From assembly GCA_900318665.1 (NCBI GenBank), contig ONLQ01000026.1, forward strand, positions 1 through 61,870: 61,870 nt of DNA, written 5' to 3'. Positions 35,829 to 46,614 of this stretch are shown one piece after another. The DNA comes from an uncultured Bacteroidales bacterium. GTDB taxonomy: Bacteria > Bacteroidota > Bacteroidia > Bacteroidales > P3. Within the stretch, counting starts at the first letter, position 1. Each line of letters starts with the position of its first letter. Under the pieces are notes generated by a model, which had not been told where the DNA came from, ran no database searches, and saw only the letters and a list, made by a program, of their open reading frames with translations. A program made the translations under genes and the position numbers.

Positions 35829-37200
35829 ATGAGATCCACAACCGACGACCGCTTTAGCAATTACGACGACGATGTAAGAGAGATAGTGCTTGATTTTGAG
35901 ACCTCGCAGCAATCGGGTCTGCGTCGCTACTATGATGCCGACGAAATGGAAATCATCATAGATTTCTATATGGACGTATGCGACATAGACCAAGTGGAAT
36001 ATGCCGTGCGATATGCCGAAAACCTCTTCCCCGAAAGCACTGGAATAAGGGTGCGCCGAGCCATACTATTAATCAACAAAGGGCAACACGACAAGGCTCT
36101 GCCTATAGCACAGGAACTGCACCGAATGGAGCCCGAAAACACCGAGGTGCTTTTTGCCCTCGGCGTGATATACAGCGCGCTTGGACAGCCAATGAAATCC
36201 ATACAATACTATCTCGGCGCCGCCCACGACAAGAACAGCCTTGAGATAATCTACTACAACATAGCCATCGAATACTGCGCCATGAGCCGCTACGAAGAGG
36301 CTATACACTACTACAAAAAGGCAATAAAGCAGAACCCCGAATATATCGACGCACTGCACGCGCTGGCAGACACTTACTACGAAAGCGAACGCACAGCCGA
36401 CAGCGTTCAATATTTCCAACAACTGGCGCAGGACAAACCTTACAACAAAGAGGCATGGCTGCTGCTGGCCGAAGGCTACTACAAACTCTCGCTATACGAA
36501 AAAGCAATAGACGCCGCAGAATATGCCCGCACCATCGACAATAAGTTCACGCCAGCCTACCTAATTATTGCCGACTGCTATCGCGACATGAACCAGCCAG
36601 GCAAAGCGACTTCTACCCTCTTGGAATGCAAGGATTTCTGTGAAAAGCCCGAATGGATTTACTACCTCATTGGCTCTATCTACTTCTATAACACGCCACA
36701 AAACATTCCTACGGCAATAATTTATTATCGCAAAGCGATAGAGATAGACCCGTTCCAATGCGACGCACTACACGACCTTGCACGATGCTACGACGAGATG
36801 CTTGACTACGGCTCTGCAGCGCAATTCATAGACCGCGCCATAGATGCCGCACCGCCTCTGGCCGAATACCATTTTGACGCGGCGCAAATACACATGCACA
36901 ATTTTGACTTTGAAAAAGCCGAGGAGAAGCAAAGACGAATACTGGCTTCTTTACGCTCTCTTCCTTTACGCCAACCAACGCTTCGACGAGGCCATAGACC
37001 TTTTGAACGGCGGCATAGGGACTGCCGACGAACAAGAGCGCTTCGACGCCATAATGGCTGCATGCTATTACCAAATGGGGAAAATCAGCCTTTTCAAAAA
37101 CATTGCGCTAAACTACTATAAAGACGATAACACCTACGACCAACTGTGGATGGACGCGCTGATGCATATCTGCCCAGAGGCTGTGGAGACATTACCCTAA
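35829..37200 (+). pseudogene. TPR-repeat protein gene with a frameshift
   Basis: Frame 1 (35829-37121) encodes tetratricopeptide repeats of the form 'A-L-x-x-A-L-x-Y..Y-x-x-A-I-x-Y-Y-x-K-A-I' up to HNFDFEKAEEK, then turns into Arg-rich nonsense (RILASLRSLPLRQPTLRRG). The sensible continuation, EYWLLYALFLYANQRFDEAIDLLNGG ... QMGKISLFKNIALNYYKDD, is in the +1 frame and ends at 37200. The switch lies at about 36928-36932 where GAGAAGCAAAGAC would read in one frame if one C (36930) were absent. Restored length is about 457 residues. It could be a real one-base insertion, a sequencing error, or a programmed shift; no slippery motif is evident. Cytoplasmic TPR scaffold, no signal peptide. It begins 26 bases after sprA. 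Confidence 0.85.
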
Positions 37201-38293: not shown

Positions 38294-39142
38294 TTATTTA
38301 TCTACTTCATCCTTGGACAATACAATGGTTCTGCCACTATATGTGAAAGACATTTCGTCATCGTTGACGGTGAAGGTGAAACGGAAATCAGTGGTATCAT
38401 GCTCTTCGTGCATCATAGCAACATATTGGCCATTCTGATAGGAGTAGGTGCCAACAAAGGTAACCTGCTGGTCATTATCTTCGCCTTCAAAATCGATATC
38501 ACGCACAAAACTGATATAGCCATCCATGACAACTACAACATAGACAACATCAGCACCCTGATAAGTCTCATCGGCAAAGGAATACATCATATAGGTGCCG
38601 TTGATGTCGGAAGAGCCTTGACCGCCTTGGTTGTTGCCACCGTTATCGTCGTCATCATCGTCGGTGCCGAATATTCTTTCCATGATTGCACGAACTTGCT
38701 CTCTGTTCTTACCTTCAACCATATCAGTGACATCGAGGGTAATCGTACTGCCCGAAATGGTATAGACCGAGGGGTCATCCTCATCGTCCAAATCATTCAT
38801 TATTTCCTGATAGGCACGCTGTGCGGTAGCGGCATCGGGATAGGTAGCCGAAACAGTACCACTGACAGCCTTGCCATCGCTACCGAAGGTAACGAAAATG
38901 CGGGCATTGACCTGAGAGTTGACATCCTCGTCGTAGGAGACAAGCGTTCCGACAAGGGTGTCGCCGTTTTCCTGCCAATTGATAGTAGCACCTTGGTTGC
39001 CGCCTTGATTACCACCTTGATTGCCACCCTGATTGTTCTCAGTATTGGTCTTGTTGTCGTCATCGTTTTCTTTCTCGTTGCAACTGGTGAAAATCATAGC
39101 CGTTGCAGCCAATGCTAAAAGCATGAATTTAAATTTCTTCAT
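38294..39142 (-). CDS. Lipoprotein with Asn-Gln-Gly repeat linker
   Basis: Protein of 282 residues with a lipoprotein signal (LAATAMIFTSC). After a charged stretch come four tandem NQGG units (about residues 38-53), then a folded region ending in a Tyr/Val-rich strand set (YVVVVMDGYISFVRDIDF) and a lipocalin-like C-terminal part (TFVGTYSYQNGQYVAMMHEEHDTTDFRFTFTVNDDEMSFTYSGRTIVL). A DDDDDDN stretch joins two domains. I do not recognise the family; a surface-exposed or periplasmic binding role would be a guess. It is a single-gene unit. Confidence 0.75.
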   Translation of the reverse strand: MKKFKFMLLALAATAMIFTSCNEKENDDDNKTNTENNQGGNQGGNQGGNQGATINWQENGDTLVGTLVSYDEDVNSQVNARIFVTFGSDGKAVSGTVSATYPDAATAQRAYQEIMNDLDDEDDPSVYTISGSTITLDVTDMVEGKNREQVRAIMERIFGTDDDDDDNGGNNQGGQGSSDINGTYMMYSFADETYQGADVVYVVVVMDGYISFVRDIDFEGEDNDQQVTFVGTYSYQNGQYVAMMHEEHDTTDFRFTFTVNDDEMSFTYSGRTIVLSKDEVDK

Positions 39143-39227: not shown

Positions 39228-40832
39228 CTAAAAACCTAGACCGAACCAGTACCAGCAGTCGGCTTCGAGTTGCTGCCATGTGGTAGCGGTTTGGTCGTAG
39301 ATGCTGGCGGTATAGGCGTTGAGGAGGTCTGTAACCTCGGCATCGCGACCTTTGCGTACCAGCAGGCGTGCCTCGCGTTCAAGATTGTCAAGACCATCGA
39401 AAGCCTTGTCTTCGCAAGCCATAATGTCACGCATCACGCGACCTTTGGTGCTCTGCCACTGGAGCGTTGCCAACTTGTTGGCACGACGGTATTTCCAAAC
39501 GATGGCGTCGGGGTTGTATTTGCGCTGTCCGCAAAGAGAATAGGGTTCGGGCAGACGGGTGGTGCCGCAGAAGATAGGCACGCGAGGGCTCTCGCCAGGG
39601 TTGTCAACCGACATCCAGCAGATGCCACCAATGTTGTCTGGCAGCCAGCCACGCAACTGAATGATATGGGAATAGGAGCACCAAGCCACGCTTACGGTAC
39701 GCATAAACTCGACCGAGCCAGGTTTGAGGCTATTATACAGACGTGTAGCGTTGCCATTCATCCACGGATTGGCTATAGGGCTGATGATGCTATCCTTGTA
39801 GGGCTTGCCGTTCTCGTCTTTGCGTTCCACCTCAATCTTGAGGTTGCGGCACATGTCGAGTTCGGTACCCTCATAGGTGCTGCGGAATAGTTCGATAACC
39901 TTGCGAACATCAACATTCTCGTCGGGCTTGATGGAGAATGGCAGTTCGTCCATATCGCGGCTGAGGTTGAGCGAGGGTGCCAAAGCGTTGAAGATGAAAT
40001 ACTCGCGTTCGCGATAGTTGCGGCCGTTAGCATAACTGGCGTTAAAAGTCTTCCAGAAGATGAACTCGCCTTTGCCGTCCCAGAGTTTCAGACGCTTGGC
40101 AACCTTCTCGATGTTGTCGGAGCACATGAAATATTCGGGATTGTCGCGCTGCAGTTTGCCGATACGGGGGATATTGGCACTGATGCCAACATGGTCGTCG
40201 GGGATGCGCTGGGCAGCCCAGATAGCACCAACCTTGCCTTTGCCCTCACCAAGGATTTCGAACTGCCACACCTCGTTGGGGTCGGCAAAAGTGAGGCACT
40301 CGCCACCATCGGCATAGCCATAGCGTTTAACCAGTTCGCCAATGAGGCGGATGGCATCGCGAGCCGTGGTGCAACGTTGCAACACCACGCGCTGCAACTC
40401 TTCTACCATAAACATACCTTTGTCGCTGCGGCACTCTGCGGGACCGCCAAAAGTAGTCTCTCCGATAGCCAACTGATGCTCATTGAGGCAAGGGTAGGCC
40501 GTATTGAGATAGGCGTATGTATGGGTCTCCTGCGGTATTGTTCCAGCCAGACGCACGCCGGTGGTATCGCCACGGAAAGTGGTATGCATTGTGCCCTTGT
40601 AGATTTCCATCATGGTACCAGGCTTATAATCTGCAGCGGGTTCCACCGTCATCCATGTACGATAGCGGCCGTCGCAAGTGTGCGAAGTAATAACGCTGCC
40701 ATCTTTAGAGGCTTTCTTGCCGACCATAATGCTGGTGCAACTCTCGCCAGGATAGACAATTGCCTCTGGCAGTTGAGCGAAGATAGGCATGGCGCATAAT
40801 GCGACAATCAAGAGTAATAGATTCTTTTTCAT
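39228..40832 (-). CDS. C69-family dipeptidase
   Basis: Protein of 534 residues with a signal peptide (MKKNLLLLIVALCAMPIFA) and the N-terminal nucleophile Cys32 in ESCTSIMVGKKASKDGSVITSH, which is exposed by removal of the short propeptide. The block GGPAECRSDKGMFMVEELQRVVLQRCTTARDAI and the FADPNEVWQFEI segment are typical of C69 (PepD-like) dipeptidases. It should act in the periplasm on dipeptides. I chose the ATG at 40832 because it places the signal peptide first. It begins 13 bases after the MurD2::M20 stop, so it very probably belongs to that operon and may process peptides released from, or feeding, the cell-wall pathway. Confidence 0.9.
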   Translation of the reverse strand: MKKNLLLLIVALCAMPIFAQLPEAIVYPGESCTSIMVGKKASKDGSVITSHTCDGRYRTWMTVEPAADYKPGTMMEIYKGTMHTTFRGDTTGVRLAGTIPQETHTYAYLNTAYPCLNEHQLAIGETTFGGPAECRSDKGMFMVEELQRVVLQRCTTARDAIRLIGELVKRYGYADGGECLTFADPNEVWQFEILGEGKGKVGAIWAAQRIPDDHVGISANIPRIGKLQRDNPEYFMCSDNIEKVAKRLKLWDGKGEFIFWKTFNASYANGRNYREREYFIFNALAPSLNLSRDMDELPFSIKPDENVDVRKVIELFRSTYEGTELDMCRNLKIEVERKDENGKPYKDSIISPIANPWMNGNATRLYNSLKPGSVEFMRTVSVAWCSYSHIIQLRGWLPDNIGGICWMSVDNPGESPRVPIFCGTTRLPEPYSLCGQRKYNPDAIVWKYRRANKLATLQWQSTKGRVMRDIMACEDKAFDGLDNLEREARLLVRKGRDAEVTDLLNAYTASIYDQTATTWQQLEADCWYWFGLGF

Positions 40833-40845
40833 CGTTGAAAGGTTA

Positions 40846-43251
40846 TTATTGATTATTATTTTTCCAATGTGATACAATCTTGAGAAATAGTTGTGCTGTC
40901 GATTCGATAATCTCGTCGGGGAAGTCATAGTCCGGGTGATGCAGTTCGGGAGTGTTTTCCCCTGCCCCAACGCCAAACATCATACCATCATAGCATTGCA
41001 GATAGTTTCCAAAATCCTCCGACCAGCGGAACGGTTCCGACTTGATATGAACGTTGTAATTGTTGTGGATTAGAAAATCGAAAATATCGTCAACCAACGC
41101 GGTATTGTTCTCCGTAGCCGAGAAAGGCTCACGCTGCTCCGACGTCCACGAGACTCGCTGCTTCACCGTGGCTGCTTTCACAATCGCGTCGGTCTGCGCG
41201 AGGAGTTCCTTCATCTTCTCGTTGGTGTAGGCCCGTAAGGTAAACATCACCTCGGCGCATCCTGCAGATGTGCCAAAGGCCTCGTCGCCAAGGCGCACAC
41301 AGATAAGCGTGGCCTGCTGGAAAACAGAGATTGCCGCATCTGGCGACGTGTTGAGAGCAAGTATATTATTTATGATTTCCGCCACGCAGAGGCCAGGATT
41401 GATACCCTTTTCTGGAGTAGATGCGTGGGTCTGACGACCCTTCAGCCGATAGATGATACCTGTTGAGGCCGCGGCAAAGGTGTTGCGCGACAGCACCACC
41501 TGACCAGCAGGGAAGCCTGGCAGATTGTGTATAGCGGTGATATATTTTATATTATATTGATTTAGGACACCGCTTTCCAACACTTTTCTCGCCCCCATAC
41601 CTGTCTCTTCCTCTGGCTGGAAAATGAGCATCACCTGCTTCAATCCTTTTTGTTCAACAAGTTGTGCCACGCGAAGCAGGATGGCTGTATGTCCGTCATG
41701 GCCGCATTTGTGCGACACGTTATTCGTTTCAGAGCAATAAGGCGCTGCCGACTGTTCGTTAATTGGCAACGCATCGGTGTCAGCACGCAAGGCTATGCAG
41801 GGCAGGTTTTTATCGCCCCAAAAGGCCACAACTCCATAGATTCCGACATGGGTGTGGAGTTCGGTGGGATTGCAGGCTTTTAGGTTACTCACTATTGTGT
41901 CGTGGGCATACTGCTCGCAACCCGACAGTCCCGGATGCTGGTGCAGGCTATGCCGCAAAGCAACAAGACGCACCAATTGGTCGAACGTGCGGCCACGGTG
42001 TTCAAAGTTGTCGAATGCATCATAGGACGCTGCCGCTGGCGACAGGAGACAAATCTTTCCTACGGCAGTATGGTCGAAACACCACGGCACGATATGGTCG
42101 TAGCGGTCATCGGTCAGAATATTACGCTTACTTGCGAAATCAGGATGAGATAGCGTTATCTGTTCCAGAATACGACGTCCCGCCTTTCCAACAAAAGCAA
42201 TATTACGTATCTTCGATGAGGGCAAATAGTCGCACAGAGCATCGTAAGGTATTCCGCGGTCCATGCCGCCAAGAATAATGGTGTCAACACGTTGCAAAGC
42301 ATCAACGGCGGCAATGGCGGCTTCGGGTATGGTGCTTATACTGTCGTCATAGAACTCAATGCCATCGTAGCAACCCACACGCTCCATACGATAGCGCAGA
42401 CCTTGAAAACCGCTTGTCACAGCAACTATGGCTCTATCCGCCACCCCGCAGGCACGCGCCACCATGACTGCCACGGTAACATTGCTACGGTTGTGATTCC
42501 CCAGCAAAGAGTCAGACAGCGTGCCCTTATAAGGGTCAGCAGCAGAATAACTCATCACCTTGGATTGCGGACGAGGCGTCATAGACATAACCTCGTTGCG
42601 CAAGGTATCGTTGTCGGCACAATAGAAAAATAGGTCTTCGGACTGCTGGCAACGCAGCATGTTGAGTTTGGCCTGTTTATATCCGTTGTAGTCGTGATAG
42701 TGGTCAAGGTGCTCCGGAAAGAGGTTTAGCAGCACGCCGATATGAGGTGCGCGATGTATGTTTTCCAACTGATGGCACGACAATTCTGCCACCACGAGGG
42801 TATCATCGGACAATTGCTCAATGATATCAAACAGAGGGATACCCATATTGCCAGCCTTCACAGCATGGCTATAGAGTTTTCCATCTATGGAGCCTCCTTT
42901 GGCAAGCATCTGATATATCAGTTCCGTAGTGGTGCTCTTGCCTTTTGTGCCAGAGACCGCTACAGTCTGACCGCCATACATCTGCAGAAACAGGTCTGTC
43001 TGTGAACTGATTTTATCCAACGGGCATACGCCCTCAAAAATCATTGTAGGAATGCCTGGCGACTTGAGAATAATGTCGAACATCGGGGCCAGACGCAGAA
43101 TATTCTCATTGCCATCGGCCACTTCAAATTGACCTCGAGGCATCAACGAAGAAAGGAAACGCTCGCTGCTACGGCCCTCACGGCCATAGCCAGCAATAAG
43201 GATTCGCTTGTTACGCAACAGCGCCTTCCATTCTTTTTCCTTATACAACAT
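40846..43251 (-). CDS. MurD2-like ligase fused to M20 amidohydrolase
   Basis: Protein of 801 residues from two complete enzymes. Residues 1-427 are a Mur ligase of the MurD type: P-loop GTKGKSTTT (101-109), NLFPEHLDHYHDYNGYKQAKL, LLGNHNRSN, DDSISTIPEA, GGMDRGIPYD and LLSPAAASYDAFDNFEHRGRTF. Residues from about 434 are an M20D amidohydrolase (LRHSLHQHPGLSG...): metal ligands CGHDGH at 516-521, EEE at 547-549, His575 (AIHNL), and HH at 771-772. The joint has almost no linker. It overlaps the murL gene by 11 bases, so the ligase probably adds L-Glu (MurD2 activity) to UDP-MurNAc-L-Ala. The hydrolase role is unknown. The ATG at 43251 is preferred to a TTG at 43260. Confidence 0.85.
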   Translation of the reverse strand: MLYKEKEWKALLRNKRILIAGYGREGRSSERFLSSLMPRGQFEVADGNENILRLAPMFDIILKSPGIPTMIFEGVCPLDKISSQTDLFLQMYGGQTVAVSGTKGKSTTTELIYQMLAKGGSIDGKLYSHAVKAGNMGIPLFDIIEQLSDDTLVVAELSCHQLENIHRAPHIGVLLNLFPEHLDHYHDYNGYKQAKLNMLRCQQSEDLFFYCADNDTLRNEVMSMTPRPQSKVMSYSAADPYKGTLSDSLLGNHNRSNVTVAVMVARACGVADRAIVAVTSGFQGLRYRMERVGCYDGIEFYDDSISTIPEAAIAAVDALQRVDTIILGGMDRGIPYDALCDYLPSSKIRNIAFVGKAGRRILEQITLSHPDFASKRNILTDDRYDHIVPWCFDHTAVGKICLLSPAAASYDAFDNFEHRGRTFDQLVRLVALRHSLHQHPGLSGCEQYAHDTIVSNLKACNPTELHTHVGIYGVVAFWGDKNLPCIALRADTDALPINEQSAAPYCSETNNVSHKCGHDGHTAILLRVAQLVEQKGLKQVMLIFQPEEETGMGARKVLESGVLNQYNIKYITAIHNLPGFPAGQVVLSRNTFAAASTGIIYRLKGRQTHASTPEKGINPGLCVAEIINNILALNTSPDAAISVFQQATLICVRLGDEAFGTSAGCAEVMFTLRAYTNEKMKELLAQTDAIVKAATVKQRVSWTSEQREPFSATENNTALVDDIFDFLIHNNYNVHIKSEPFRWSEDFGNYLQCYDGMMFGVGAGENTPELHHPDYDFPDEIIESTAQLFLKIVSHWKNNNQ

Positions 43252-44611
43252 GAGCCACAAGAATATTCATTAAACCTTCTGTGAGATTATGCTCGGAAGC
43301 CAAAGCGGAAAGCGACACACTGTCACCTTGCGGCTGGAAGTCTCGCAACAAACAAGGCACTTCCCCATTGGCATACCATCTGTCAACAGTCATACGCAAA
43401 GCCGTATTGACTTCCGCCACAGTTCCCACACACTCAAACGGCTTGACGGGCTCAAGCCCTGCAAGTTGACGGAAATAGAGCATCAACGTCTCATCGTCTA
43501 ACAGATTGTGCCCGAAATACTGTGCAAGACGGTCGGGCGATATGAATGGAGAAAGAATGATGAACGCAAAGAGGCATTTGGCGCAATGGCCGCACCACAC
43601 ATCCTGCTTGCTTCCCACATTGCAACTACGAAAGACGTCGTGATACTGGGGCAAGCGAGAGAAAAGCATGGCAATCTGCAACTCCGACAGCGGCCGCAGA
43701 AAACTGAAATAGTCAAATCGAGGAGAGATGAACGATGACACATAGTCGCGAAAATCGTTCTCAAACTCAAGACTTTTAGAATACTGGTGGTTCACGCCGT
43801 TGGCAATATCCGTTGCCTCGTTGGCACTGCTCTCGTTGGAAAGAGCGATATGGCGACGCCCTGTAAGCGCAGAAACCAGCAGTGTATAGAATGCCAGCAT
43901 GGCCGAAAAGGGAGTGTGCCCATTGAGAGCGCCCTTAGCGTTGAGATCGAGCAGCAGCGGGTCAATAGCACGACGTATCTCTAAAAAATCGCCATGTTCA
44001 TAACCCGCCACGCGACAGCATTCTACTGTTGCCCCGCGAGGGTTCATTATGAGTGGCAACGGAGAATCTAATTGCAGGCGTGTACTGTAGGATTGCAGGC
44101 AATCAAGCGTCACCACAGAATCCTTGCCACCGCCTATCGGAACAATAAAACTCTCCGACGCCTTGTCATCAAACTGACTGAAAGCTACCGGCTTTAACGG
44201 TTCGCCTTCAGCCTCGATTGTCATAAAGTCGTCAATGGTAGCCCTAATTCCATTCACATAGAAAAACTCCCCCAGCCCATTGAAATACAACTTCTTCCAA
44301 AAACATTTTTGTTCTTCCGTAAGTCCGTGAGGGACAATGCGCACCAAAGGAGGGCAAAAAGCCTTCCAATAACTAACCAATTCGGCCATACCTATATTAA
44401 AAACAAGTAGGTCGAGTTGGTCTTTAGGAATACTGAAATTGATAAACTGGCGCGTCGGGACGGAAGAGCGCACAGCAAAACAAAGTTTGTCACTCAATTT
44501 GAAATGAAAACACATATGCAGCCCGTCGGACTGCATAGTGTATTCATAATCCTGATAGACAAACTCAGGAAAAGTCTGCCTGTAGGTGTTATACCTTTTC
44601 TGGGCTGACAT
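43241..44611 (-). CDS. murL: UDP-MurNAc-L-Ala-L-Glu epimerase, MurL-like
   Basis: Protein of 456 residues with an N-terminal beta-rich part and a PP-loop-like C-terminal part containing PIGGGKDSVVTLDCL (SGGxDS-type nucleotide loop), HIALSNESSANEA and a CGHCAKCLF metal-type cluster. This combination fits MurL, which in Xanthomonas epimerises the terminal L-Glu of UDP-MurNAc-L-Ala-L-Glu to D-Glu after MurD2, in an ATP-dependent reaction, replacing glutamate racemase plus MurD. The neighbouring MurD2-like ligase is exactly the partner expected. No signal peptide, so cytoplasmic. The ATG overlaps the coiled-coil gene stop (TAATG), and the end overlaps the ligase gene by 11 bases. A PP-loop enzyme of another function is the main alternative. 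Confidence 0.78.
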   Translation of the reverse strand: MSAQKRYNTYRQTFPEFVYQDYEYTMQSDGLHMCFHFKLSDKLCFAVRSSVPTRQFINFSIPKDQLDLLVFNIGMAELVSYWKAFCPPLVRIVPHGLTEEQKCFWKKLYFNGLGEFFYVNGIRATIDDFMTIEAEGEPLKPVAFSQFDDKASESFIVPIGGGKDSVVTLDCLQSYSTRLQLDSPLPLIMNPRGATVECCRVAGYEHGDFLEIRRAIDPLLLDLNAKGALNGHTPFSAMLAFYTLLVSALTGRRHIALSNESSANEATDIANGVNHQYSKSLEFENDFRDYVSSFISPRFDYFSFLRPLSELQIAMLFSRLPQYHDVFRSCNVGSKQDVWCGHCAKCLFAFIILSPFISPDRLAQYFGHNLLDDETLMLYFRQLAGLEPVKPFECVGTVAEVNTALRMTVDRWYANGEVPCLLRDFQPQGDSVSLSALASEHNLTEGLMNILVAHVV

Positions 44612-46530
44612 TATTTCAGTTTGAAACTGGTCTTACCAATCTCGTTGCCATTGGCATAGAGGGTGACCCAATAGAGACCGGCAGGCATTTCGACACTTTC
44701 AAGTTTCTTCCAAATCATGCTGACCTTGCGGCTGAAACCAGTAAACTCAATATCCTGTTTGACGGTGTACTGCATCGGGGTGCCGTTCATGTCGAACACA
44801 TCTTCGCTGATACCATTGGTAACAACGCGGTTGGATGCATTGGAAATACGGGCGTAGATGGTGATAGTACCCGGGTCAACAACATTGTTGTCGAGGATTT
44901 TGCAATCAATCTTGATGGCGGTGAGGTTAGAACCCTTGTCGGTAGCCTTCACCGTAGTGCCACTAACCGACTTGGCGGGGGTAACGGTAAGGTCGCTGGT
45001 GACGAGGATGCTTGCGAGAGCAACCTTCTGCACCAGGCGTGCGTTCTCGGTCTCAATCTGAGCGGAATTTTTCTGGTTGTTGGCAACCTCTTCGCGTAAC
45101 TGGCTGTTCTCGGCCTTGAGTTGCTCGTTTTCGGCTTTCAGACGCTCAATCTCGGCGGCATAACTATCGCAGAGGTTCTGCAGGGCCTCGAGTTTCTGAT
45201 TGACAGTGCCTTTGGCGGCAACAATCTTGGAAGCCTGAGAAGCAGCGGAAGGAGCAGCAGCCTTGGCATCTGCCAATTCCTTCTTGGCGGCAGCCAGTTC
45301 GCTGTCTTTCTGCTGGAGGGTGGTGTTGAGGCCTGCAATCTGATTCTGCTGGTCTGACACCTGTTTTTGCAAAGCAGCAATCTGAGCCATCAGTTCGGCG
45401 TTGTTCTCGACAGGTTTTGCAACCTCTTCCTTGGCGGGAGCCTCAACAACGGGCTGTGCGGCATTCTCTTTGAGTTTTGCAATCTGTGCATCGCGCTCGG
45501 CAACCATAGACTCACGCTCGGCTATCATGTTCTCGCGCTCGGCAAGTTGTTTCTGAAGGCCTTCCACCTGTTTTTCAAGTTCGGTGCCTTTGGACTGCAA
45601 AGTGTTAATCTGCGACTCGAGTTGAGCGACCTTTGCATCGGACTGAGAGTTGTCGGCTTTGCCCTGCGACTGCAGTTCGGTAACCTGGCCCTGCAAAGAA
45701 CTCACCTGGCCTTTGAGGTTAGCCACCTGGCCTTCGAGGTTGGAAATCTGTTTCTTGTATTTTGCCACCTCTGCATCGTTGTTAGATGTAGGAGCGGGAA
45801 CGGGCTTTGCATTAGCAACCTGCTTTTTGAGGTCGGCAATTTGCGACTGAAGTTTACTCACCTGAGAATTGAGGTCGCTGTTCTTAGCAGTAAGACTTTT
45901 GTTCTGCTTGGTAAGGTCGCTATTCTGCGAGGTGAGGGTCTTGTTCTGCTTGGTAAGGTCAGCAATTTTGTTATTGAGTGTGGAAATCTCGCCATTCAGA
46001 GTCTTAATCTGACCTTCCTGCTTGGTGATTTGCTGCTGCAGTTTCTCAACTTTGGCGGCCGACTTAGTATCGACGGTGGTATTGCCAGCAGCATTTTTCT
46101 GACTGAGTTGCGACTGCAGTTTGGAAAGTTCCTTGCTCTGCTTGTCAACCTGCGACTGAAGGCGGCTCACCTGAGACTCTTTATCCTTTACTTCTTTCTG
46201 CAGACGTTTTACTTCGGCTGAGTTATCGGCAATCTGAGAAGCCTGTTTTGACTTTTCCTGAGCCTCTTTTATCTGCTCAAGCAACACATTGATTTCTGCA
46301 GCCTGTGCCTGAATGGTGCTGTCCTTTTCAGCCAAGGACTTATTAAGGTTGGGGTCTGCGCTTTTCAGTCGCTCGAACTCGAGCATTGTGCTATCAAGGC
46401 GATTCTGCAATGCAACAATCTCCTCATCTACTTCATGTTCCTTGTTGAACTGGCAAGATGTAAACATTGTAGCAAATGCCACAAAACCGGCACATACTGC
46501 AAAAGAAAGTTTAGTGAAATGTACTTTCAT
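44611..46530 (-). CDS. Coiled-coil lipoprotein
   Basis: Protein of 639 residues. A lipoprotein signal (AFATMFTSCQF, Cys near 26) is followed by about 450 residues of heptad-repeat coiled coil rich in Gln, Lys, Leu and Ser (many LQSQVSxLKGQVxxLQ units), a Ala/Val/Pro break near 360-380, further coiled coil to about 505, and a C-terminal beta-rich domain (about 510-639, ending GLYWVTLYANGNEIGKTSFKLK). It could be a spacer between outer membrane and wall. The gene is first in the operon with murL and MurD2::M20 and overlaps murL by TAATG. I do not recognise the family, and the coiled coil makes similarity-based naming unsafe. Confidence 0.78.
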   Translation of the reverse strand: MKVHFTKLSFAVCAGFVAFATMFTSCQFNKEHEVDEEIVALQNRLDSTMLEFERLKSADPNLNKSLAEKDSTIQAQAAEINVLLEQIKEAQEKSKQASQIADNSAEVKRLQKEVKDKESQVSRLQSQVDKQSKELSKLQSQLSQKNAAGNTTVDTKSAAKVEKLQQQITKQEGQIKTLNGEISTLNNKIADLTKQNKTLTSQNSDLTKQNKSLTAKNSDLNSQVSKLQSQIADLKKQVANAKPVPAPTSNNDAEVAKYKKQISNLEGQVANLKGQVSSLQGQVTELQSQGKADNSQSDAKVAQLESQINTLQSKGTELEKQVEGLQKQLAERENMIAERESMVAERDAQIAKLKENAAQPVVEAPAKEEVAKPVENNAELMAQIAALQKQVSDQQNQIAGLNTTLQQKDSELAAAKKELADAKAAAPSAASQASKIVAAKGTVNQKLEALQNLCDSYAAEIERLKAENEQLKAENSQLREEVANNQKNSAQIETENARLVQKVALASILVTSDLTVTPAKSVSGTTVKATDKGSNLTAIKIDCKILDNNVVDPGTITIYARISNASNRVVTNGISEDVFDMNGTPMQYTVKQDIEFTGFSRKVSMIWKKLESVEMPAGLYWVTLYANGNEIGKTSFKLK

Positions 46531-46583: not shown

Positions 46584-46614
46584 CAAAATTACATTTTTTT
46601 GTTAATAACGCAAA
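46584..46614 (-). promoter_or_regulatory. Promoter of the coiled-coil/murL operon
   Basis: Minus strand: TTTG at 46611-46614 and TAATTTTG at 46584-46591 with 19 bases between. The leader to the ATG at 46530 is about 50 bases. It is the only clear promoter found for the four-gene unit down to 39228. Confidence 0.75.

Follow-up and report, generated by a model that had tools for sequence, protein, structure and literature searches.

How does a bacterium without a recognizable MurI supply D-glutamate (D-Glu) to its cell wall? The question is raised by contig ONLQ01000026.1 of an uncultured Bacteroidales bacterium (assembly GCA_900318665.1), of which positions 1 to 61,870, the whole stretch analysed and called the window here, contain a minus-strand unit of four genes. 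As read from the window sequence these encode a coiled-coil lipoprotein, the epimerase candidate MurL, a ligase fused to an amidohydrolase (MurD2::M20) and a C69-family dipeptidase. Very probably the unit codes for the early D-Glu branch in peptidoglycan precursor synthesis, with MurL and MurD2 in place of MurI and with M20 as their dedicated partner, and the MurD of the dcw cluster has shrunk and is kept non-catalytically. The basis for this was observed: gene content, residues, modelled fold, MurI exclusion, fusions, truncation and purifying selection.

In the reactions that we infer, MurL would spend ATP on the carboxylate of the newly added Glu and epimerize it from L-Glu to D-Glu, and so make the compound that MurE uses; M20 would serve MurL/MurD2 as a dedicated partner within the genus. 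The route would replace MurI here and in roughly one in three of the Bacteroidales sampled. Once MurI was lost, many lineages would no longer have needed the old MurD as a catalyst, the dcw gene would have shrunk to its C-terminal domain, and selection would retain that domain for some non-catalytic role.

MurL and MurD2 in the absence of MurI

MurL (456 aa, 43241..44611, minus strand) was matched by a single NCBIfam model, NF041275 (MurL), at 238.3 bits (E 1e-70). Its modelled fold was closest to QatC and QueC, at 10-15% identity, although Foldseek alone gave no match at E <= 0.001 and no PDB relative was found by sequence at E 0.1. In the PP-loop motif PIGGGKDS (residues 158-165; 44117..44140, minus strand), P158 and G160-S165 were invariant in 14 of 14 aligned sequences. 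With a PP-loop fold and a GGKDS-type motif, MurL is predicted to be a member of the QueC/QatC-like PP-loop superfamily.

The adjoining fusion (801 aa from the ATG, 40846..43251, minus strand) begins with the MurD2 ligase domain (about residues 1-428; 41968..43251), which matched TIGR01087 at 244.7 bits (cut-off 212) over residues 55-428; the Pfam Mur_ligase_C match was under its cut-off (19.4 vs 28.4). The P-loop GTKGKST lies at 42931..42951, and the other positions checked that are catalytic in MurD were kept. MurD2 proteins of 58 MurL loci (the present one included) were aligned with 62 dcw MurDs of MurL-positive genomes, 30 MurDs of MurI-positive genomes and E. coli MurD. Where the E. coli enzyme has Asp182, Lys348 and Lys319, the window protein has Glu, Arg and Ile; across the 58, position 182 was E in 56 of the 57 with a residue there, and positions 348 and 319 were R and I in 56/56 each. 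The control MurDs had D, K and K in 30/30. According to PMC8788868, L-Glu specificity of Xanthomonas oryzae MurD2 is set by Glu197 and Arg358, which correspond to Asp182 and Lys348, and E. coli MurD changed at Lys319 accepts L-Glu.

No MurI was found in the genome (G000; 2.30 Mb, 93.6% complete), where no protein but the window MurD2 passed the cut-off of the MurD family. Among 198 genomes sampled from the order, MurL matches occurred in 70, of which 67 were taken as full-length and three pieces were dropped (G052, G075, G188). Full-length MurL was present in 67 genomes, MurI over its cut-off in 120 and both in none (Fisher 1e-41, ignoring relatedness). In a family sample of 149 genomes, MurL was found in 141 and MurI over the cut-off in none, with one weak MurI match (G243). 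A scan of named genomes returned at least 573 stretches encoding MurL, and nearly all of the best 80 were labelled Bacteroidota; the closest named MurL among the matches listed was that of Candidatus Colimorpha onthohippi (61% identity). In the order sample, 58 of the 67 genomes (own included) had MurD2 next to MurL and on its strand, in three of them fused to it (G107, G079, G183). Many gut and environmental Bacteroidales appear to make cell-wall D-Glu by L-Glu ligation followed by epimerization.

Several observations weigh against this reading. Eleven of the 198 genomes had neither full-length MurL nor MurI over the cut-off, and nine of the 67 MurL loci had no MurD2 in the fetched stretch (G001, G050, G045, G162, G120, G054, G181, G077 and G071; contig ends, or MurD2 elsewhere). 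In the MurD2 of G034, residue 182 is D. Ten MurL-positive genomes had MurI-model matches below the cut-off, at 30-45 bits and mostly in frames of 230-250 aa (G026, G040, G098, G099, G110, G114, G124, G129, G140, G172); these are perhaps other Asp/Glu racemases able to supply D-Glu. The test for a D-Glu aminotransferase was weak: none of 78 genomes was over the cut-off (best 149.6 vs 277.45 bits), and the Dat cut-off was passed by only one of 14 control genomes. Thirty-three MurL-positive genomes with no MurI over the cut-off keep a full-length dcw MurD, which at the positions checked differed from the controls and E. coli only by two N271D and one R425K. Because the catalytic residues are nearly all intact, MurD catalysis still looks selected in these genomes, where D-Glu could possibly come through salvage or another racemase.

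Also on that side, the MurL score of 238 bits falls far short of the curated NF041275 cut-off of 700, which belongs to a model named for Xanthomonadales. Taken with the nearness of the modelled fold to QatC and QueC, this would suit another QueC/QatC-type PP-loop enzyme, active in base modification or defence, beside an ordinary D-Glu ligase. We consider that very improbable. Likeness in fold shows no function, and MurL, unlike QueC/QatC, adjoins a Mur ligase or is fused to it. NF041275 remained the sole NCBIfam match, MurL and MurI were mutually exclusive across the order sample, and MurD2 carries the Glu/Arg switch residues (PMC8788868). A defence role for MurL was rejected, there being no match to any PADLOC family.

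The MurD domain of the dcw cluster

The dcw cluster of the same genome lies outside the window (contig C23) and, with names read from translations, comprises murE, mraY, a 179-aa open reading frame (ORF), ftsW, murG and murC. The 179-aa product is the C-terminal domain of MurD plus the end of the central domain, without the P-loop. Compared with canonical MurD (TIGR01087) it is devoid of the N-terminal domain and of nearly all of the central ATP-binding domain and, as predicted from its domain content, cannot be a ligase alone. A split murD was considered and rejected, since the one other match in this genome to extend to the N-terminus is part of the dcw murC.

The first-pass annotation had proposed that the organism may use MurD2 and MurL in place of MurI and MurD; it called for a hidden Markov model check of the 456-aa protein, took MurD2 for an L-Glu-type ligase, and held that a normal murI and murD elsewhere, along with a better score of the MurL-like protein to another PP-loop family, would count against the route. 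The proposal was largely borne out: the whole-genome search found no MurI and, at the dcw locus, only the MurD C-terminal domain; NF041275 (MurL) was the only NCBIfam match, though below its cut-off, and the modelled fold is of PP-loop type; and the ligase domain carries Glu and Arg, the L-Glu determinants published in PMC8788868.

A dcw MurD homologue was found in 62 of the 67 MurL-positive genomes (33 full-length, 27 domain-only and two cut by contig ends) and in five there was none. Lengths from the first start codon were bimodal, 176-187 aa for the 27 domain-only proteins and 443-457 aa for 32 of the 33 full-length ones; the other (G012, 379 aa) lies near a contig end. All 27 domain-only genes start 0-94 bases after mraY and precede ftsW on the same strand. 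In 31 of 33 full-length MurDs of MurL-positive genomes and 21 of 30 of MurI-positive ones, an internal Met stands at the alignment position of the first Met of the domain-only proteins. The P-loop alignment columns were empty in 27/27, and K348 was retained in 7/27.

As a control, 110 of the 120 MurI-positive genomes were examined, in an initial set of 30 and a further 80 from the remainder. MurD over the cut-off was found in 30/30 and 77/80, one of the 77 (G155) having it split over two contigs; in the other three (G017, G171, G188) the gene was incomplete or split at contig ends. No clear domain-only MurD was seen among the 110. The domain-only form thus occurred in 27 of 60 classifiable MurL-positive genomes vs 0 of 107 MurI-positive genomes with MurD over the cut-off (Fisher 9e-15, relatedness ignored).

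The absence of the P-loop, of nearly all of the central domain and of catalytic residues would also fit a neutral murD relic with its decay still to come. We give this very little credence, and neutral decay was disfavoured by the reading frames and substitution rates. In the family sample a dcw MurD match was present in 140 of 149 genomes, the best 139 of the 140 in stop-free frames of 168-364 aa, and the domain is complete and well predicted structurally. The ratio of nonsynonymous to synonymous substitution rates (dN/dS) ranged from 0.013 to 0.102 among the 12 closest pairs drawn from 30 sequences (dS is saturated for the lowest value; the next was 0.036) and 0.08-0.28 between the present gene and those of eight relatives with dS >1. 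It was below that of ftsW in four of the five pairs giving both, and above that of mraY where both were given. The domain-only MurD is under purifying selection. Three domain-only matches (G252, G291, G334) lie in stop-to-stop frames of 315-364 aa, possibly reflecting longer N-termini or fusion with the upstream gene.

Mapping of the full-length and domain-only states on a MurL tree gave 10 changes, at least four of them forced by starred branches. A tree of MraY plus FtsW gave 13 changes, at least six forced, for 57 of the 60 genomes, the branches of G000 and G101 being long; it excludes G005, G013 and G012, and an earlier version had dropped 23 of the 60, in which MraY or FtsW was short or missing. 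Both trees were built by a quick procedure and many of their forks are weak. Two same-genus pairs were discordant (G049 domain-only with G159 full-length; G034 domain-only with G148 full-length). The domain-only form is predicted from these trees to have arisen repeatedly, and transfer of dcw segments may contribute to the pattern.

We lean towards the view that MurD has a second, non-catalytic function in its C-terminal domain, exposed after MurL/MurD2 had been gained: the first ~256 residues would have been deleted repeatedly, with a restart at the same internal Met and the domain kept between mraY and ftsW. That function may consist in docking to MurG, MreB or the MraY/FtsW machinery. In PMC6420597 and PMC4929429, Thermotoga MurD is reported to bind MurG and MreB and a Mur scaffold is proposed; if the C-terminal domain served for docking, its survival alone would be accounted for. 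The domain might instead be a new regulatory subunit of MurD2/MurL, recruited after the switch, and its occurrence only together with MurL agrees with this. We hold that to be possible and the less probable of the two, as the kept dcw place and the repeated truncation at the same internal Met fit a pre-existing function better.

Organization of the unit and the M20 domain

The first gene of the unit encodes the coiled-coil lipoprotein (639 aa, 44611..46530, minus strand; lipobox read by eye), which gave many generic domain matches. It overlaps murL by TAATG at 44611; murL and murD2::m20 overlap by 11 bases (43241-43251), and a 13-base gap (40833-40845) precedes the dipeptidase gene (534 aa from the ATG, 39228..40832, minus strand). 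The dipeptidase was over the cut-off for PF03577 and under that for NF033678 (190.5 bits vs 250), with a signal peptide read by eye. A pattern scan placed a promoter, TTTG-N19-TAATTTTG, at 46584..46614 on the minus strand, using what we take to be the Bacteroidales consensus; this pattern occurred four times in the window vs 0.87 expected (at least four in 3 of 100 shuffles), and the site was absent from the output of a plain sigma-70 scan. The tight linkage and the single promoter described in the first-pass annotation therefore agree with the coordinates found here, and the conservation of gene order that it had asked about was seen in relatives.

Of the 79 genomes of the genus, 39 were fetched: the present one, 36 taken in list order that had a good MurL match, and two chosen for their strong match (G342, G343). 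Some of the fetched stretches stop at contig ends, and the counts that follow are lower bounds. MurD2 was on the same strand as MurL in 37, M20 in 35, the coiled coil in 20 and C69, following M20, in 18; the order coiled coil, MurL, MurD2, M20, C69 was intact in 18, a recurrence that goes beyond chance. Single frames joined MurL and MurD2 in five genomes and MurD2 and M20 in four (own, G264, G275, G342); in G264 all three share one frame of 1,273 aa. In G280, murD2::m20-c69 lies on a separate contig from the coiled-coil gene and murL. At order level M20 beside MurL amounted to one weak 27% match among 66 relatives. Among the best 80 of the at least 573 named loci, MurD2 was on the same strand in 74 (fused in 12), M20 was present in 16, C69 of >55% identity on the same strand in nine and a coiled-coil homologue in 10. 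Outside close relatives the conserved core is MurL-MurD2; M20 is a genus-level partner of MurL, and the coiled coil and C69 are features of a subset of the genus. The last two were rejected as general MurL partners, being found at 0/66 other order-level loci under the score limits used, several loci being short.

The M20 domain (about residues 429-801; 40846..41967, minus strand; motifs CGHDGHT and HHPDYDF) matched PF01546 at 93.4 bits (cut-off 24.6), the dimerisation domain PF07687 at 28.8 (21) and, over residues 429-783, TIGR01891 at 188.8 (153.75). The fusions show that M20 is tied functionally to MurL/MurD2; they do not indicate its substrate. M20 acylases often favour N-acyl-L-amino acids, and this preference, with the fusion of M20 to MurD2 and once to MurL::MurD2, fits editing or salvage of N-acyl-L-Glu. 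That is a guess that we rate as rather unlikely: hydrolysis of the product would be a futile cycle, and M20 is not beside MurL in nearly all other MurL-positive Bacteroidales.

Three neighbouring genes were noted. A lipoprotein-like gene with an NQGG repeat and acidic stretches (38294-39142, minus strand) lies directly downstream of the unit, and about 3 kb upstream is a gene for diaminopimelate (DAP) epimerase (PF01678; 49865-50674, minus strand), also a peptidoglycan precursor gene. A TPR gene (35829-37200, plus strand) has an apparent frame change near 36.9 kb, read by eye, where a 430-aa ORF ends in unlike sequence and TPR-like sequence goes on in a 118-aa ORF of a different frame; this is either an assembly error or a broken gene.

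Known systems and the meaning of the route

The closest parallel is MurD2/MurL of X. oryzae (XOO_1320/XOO_1319), likewise an adjacent pair without MurI, with the Glu/Arg switch residues and a MurL-model match. Unlike it, the Bacteroidales unit has MurL::MurD2, MurD2::M20 and once a triple fusion, with M20, C69 and coiled-coil neighbours; the dcw MurD is often cut down, and MurL scores far under the Xanthomonadales cut-off. The MurE-MurF fusion of Bordetella (PMC6420597) also joins consecutive precursor steps; the present fusions differ in joining epimerase, ligase and M20 hydrolase. No paper dealing with a truncated MurD was found, none on MurL in Bacteroidetes, nor any description of a set with the dipeptidase and fused amidohydrolase, as the first-pass annotation had supposed, in a search that left most subscription papers outside; the set recurs in the genus.

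The MurL route has been reported for some proteobacteria and rare actinobacteria (PMC8788868), and weak orthologues have been added from cyanobacteria, one fungus and one amoeba (PMC5808125). It now looks like a major route in Bacteroidales, beyond the groups given in those two reviews. D-Glu supply is an antibiotic target, and which inhibitors could work depends on the route. A third activity linked to it is suggested by the M20 fusions. Nearly half of the compared MurL-positive genomes keep MurD as a lone, strongly preserved domain, which hints at a second job; the domain-only MurD amounts to a separation-of-function experiment made by nature, and makes directly testable the old question of whether Mur ligases are structural members of a cell-wall complex.
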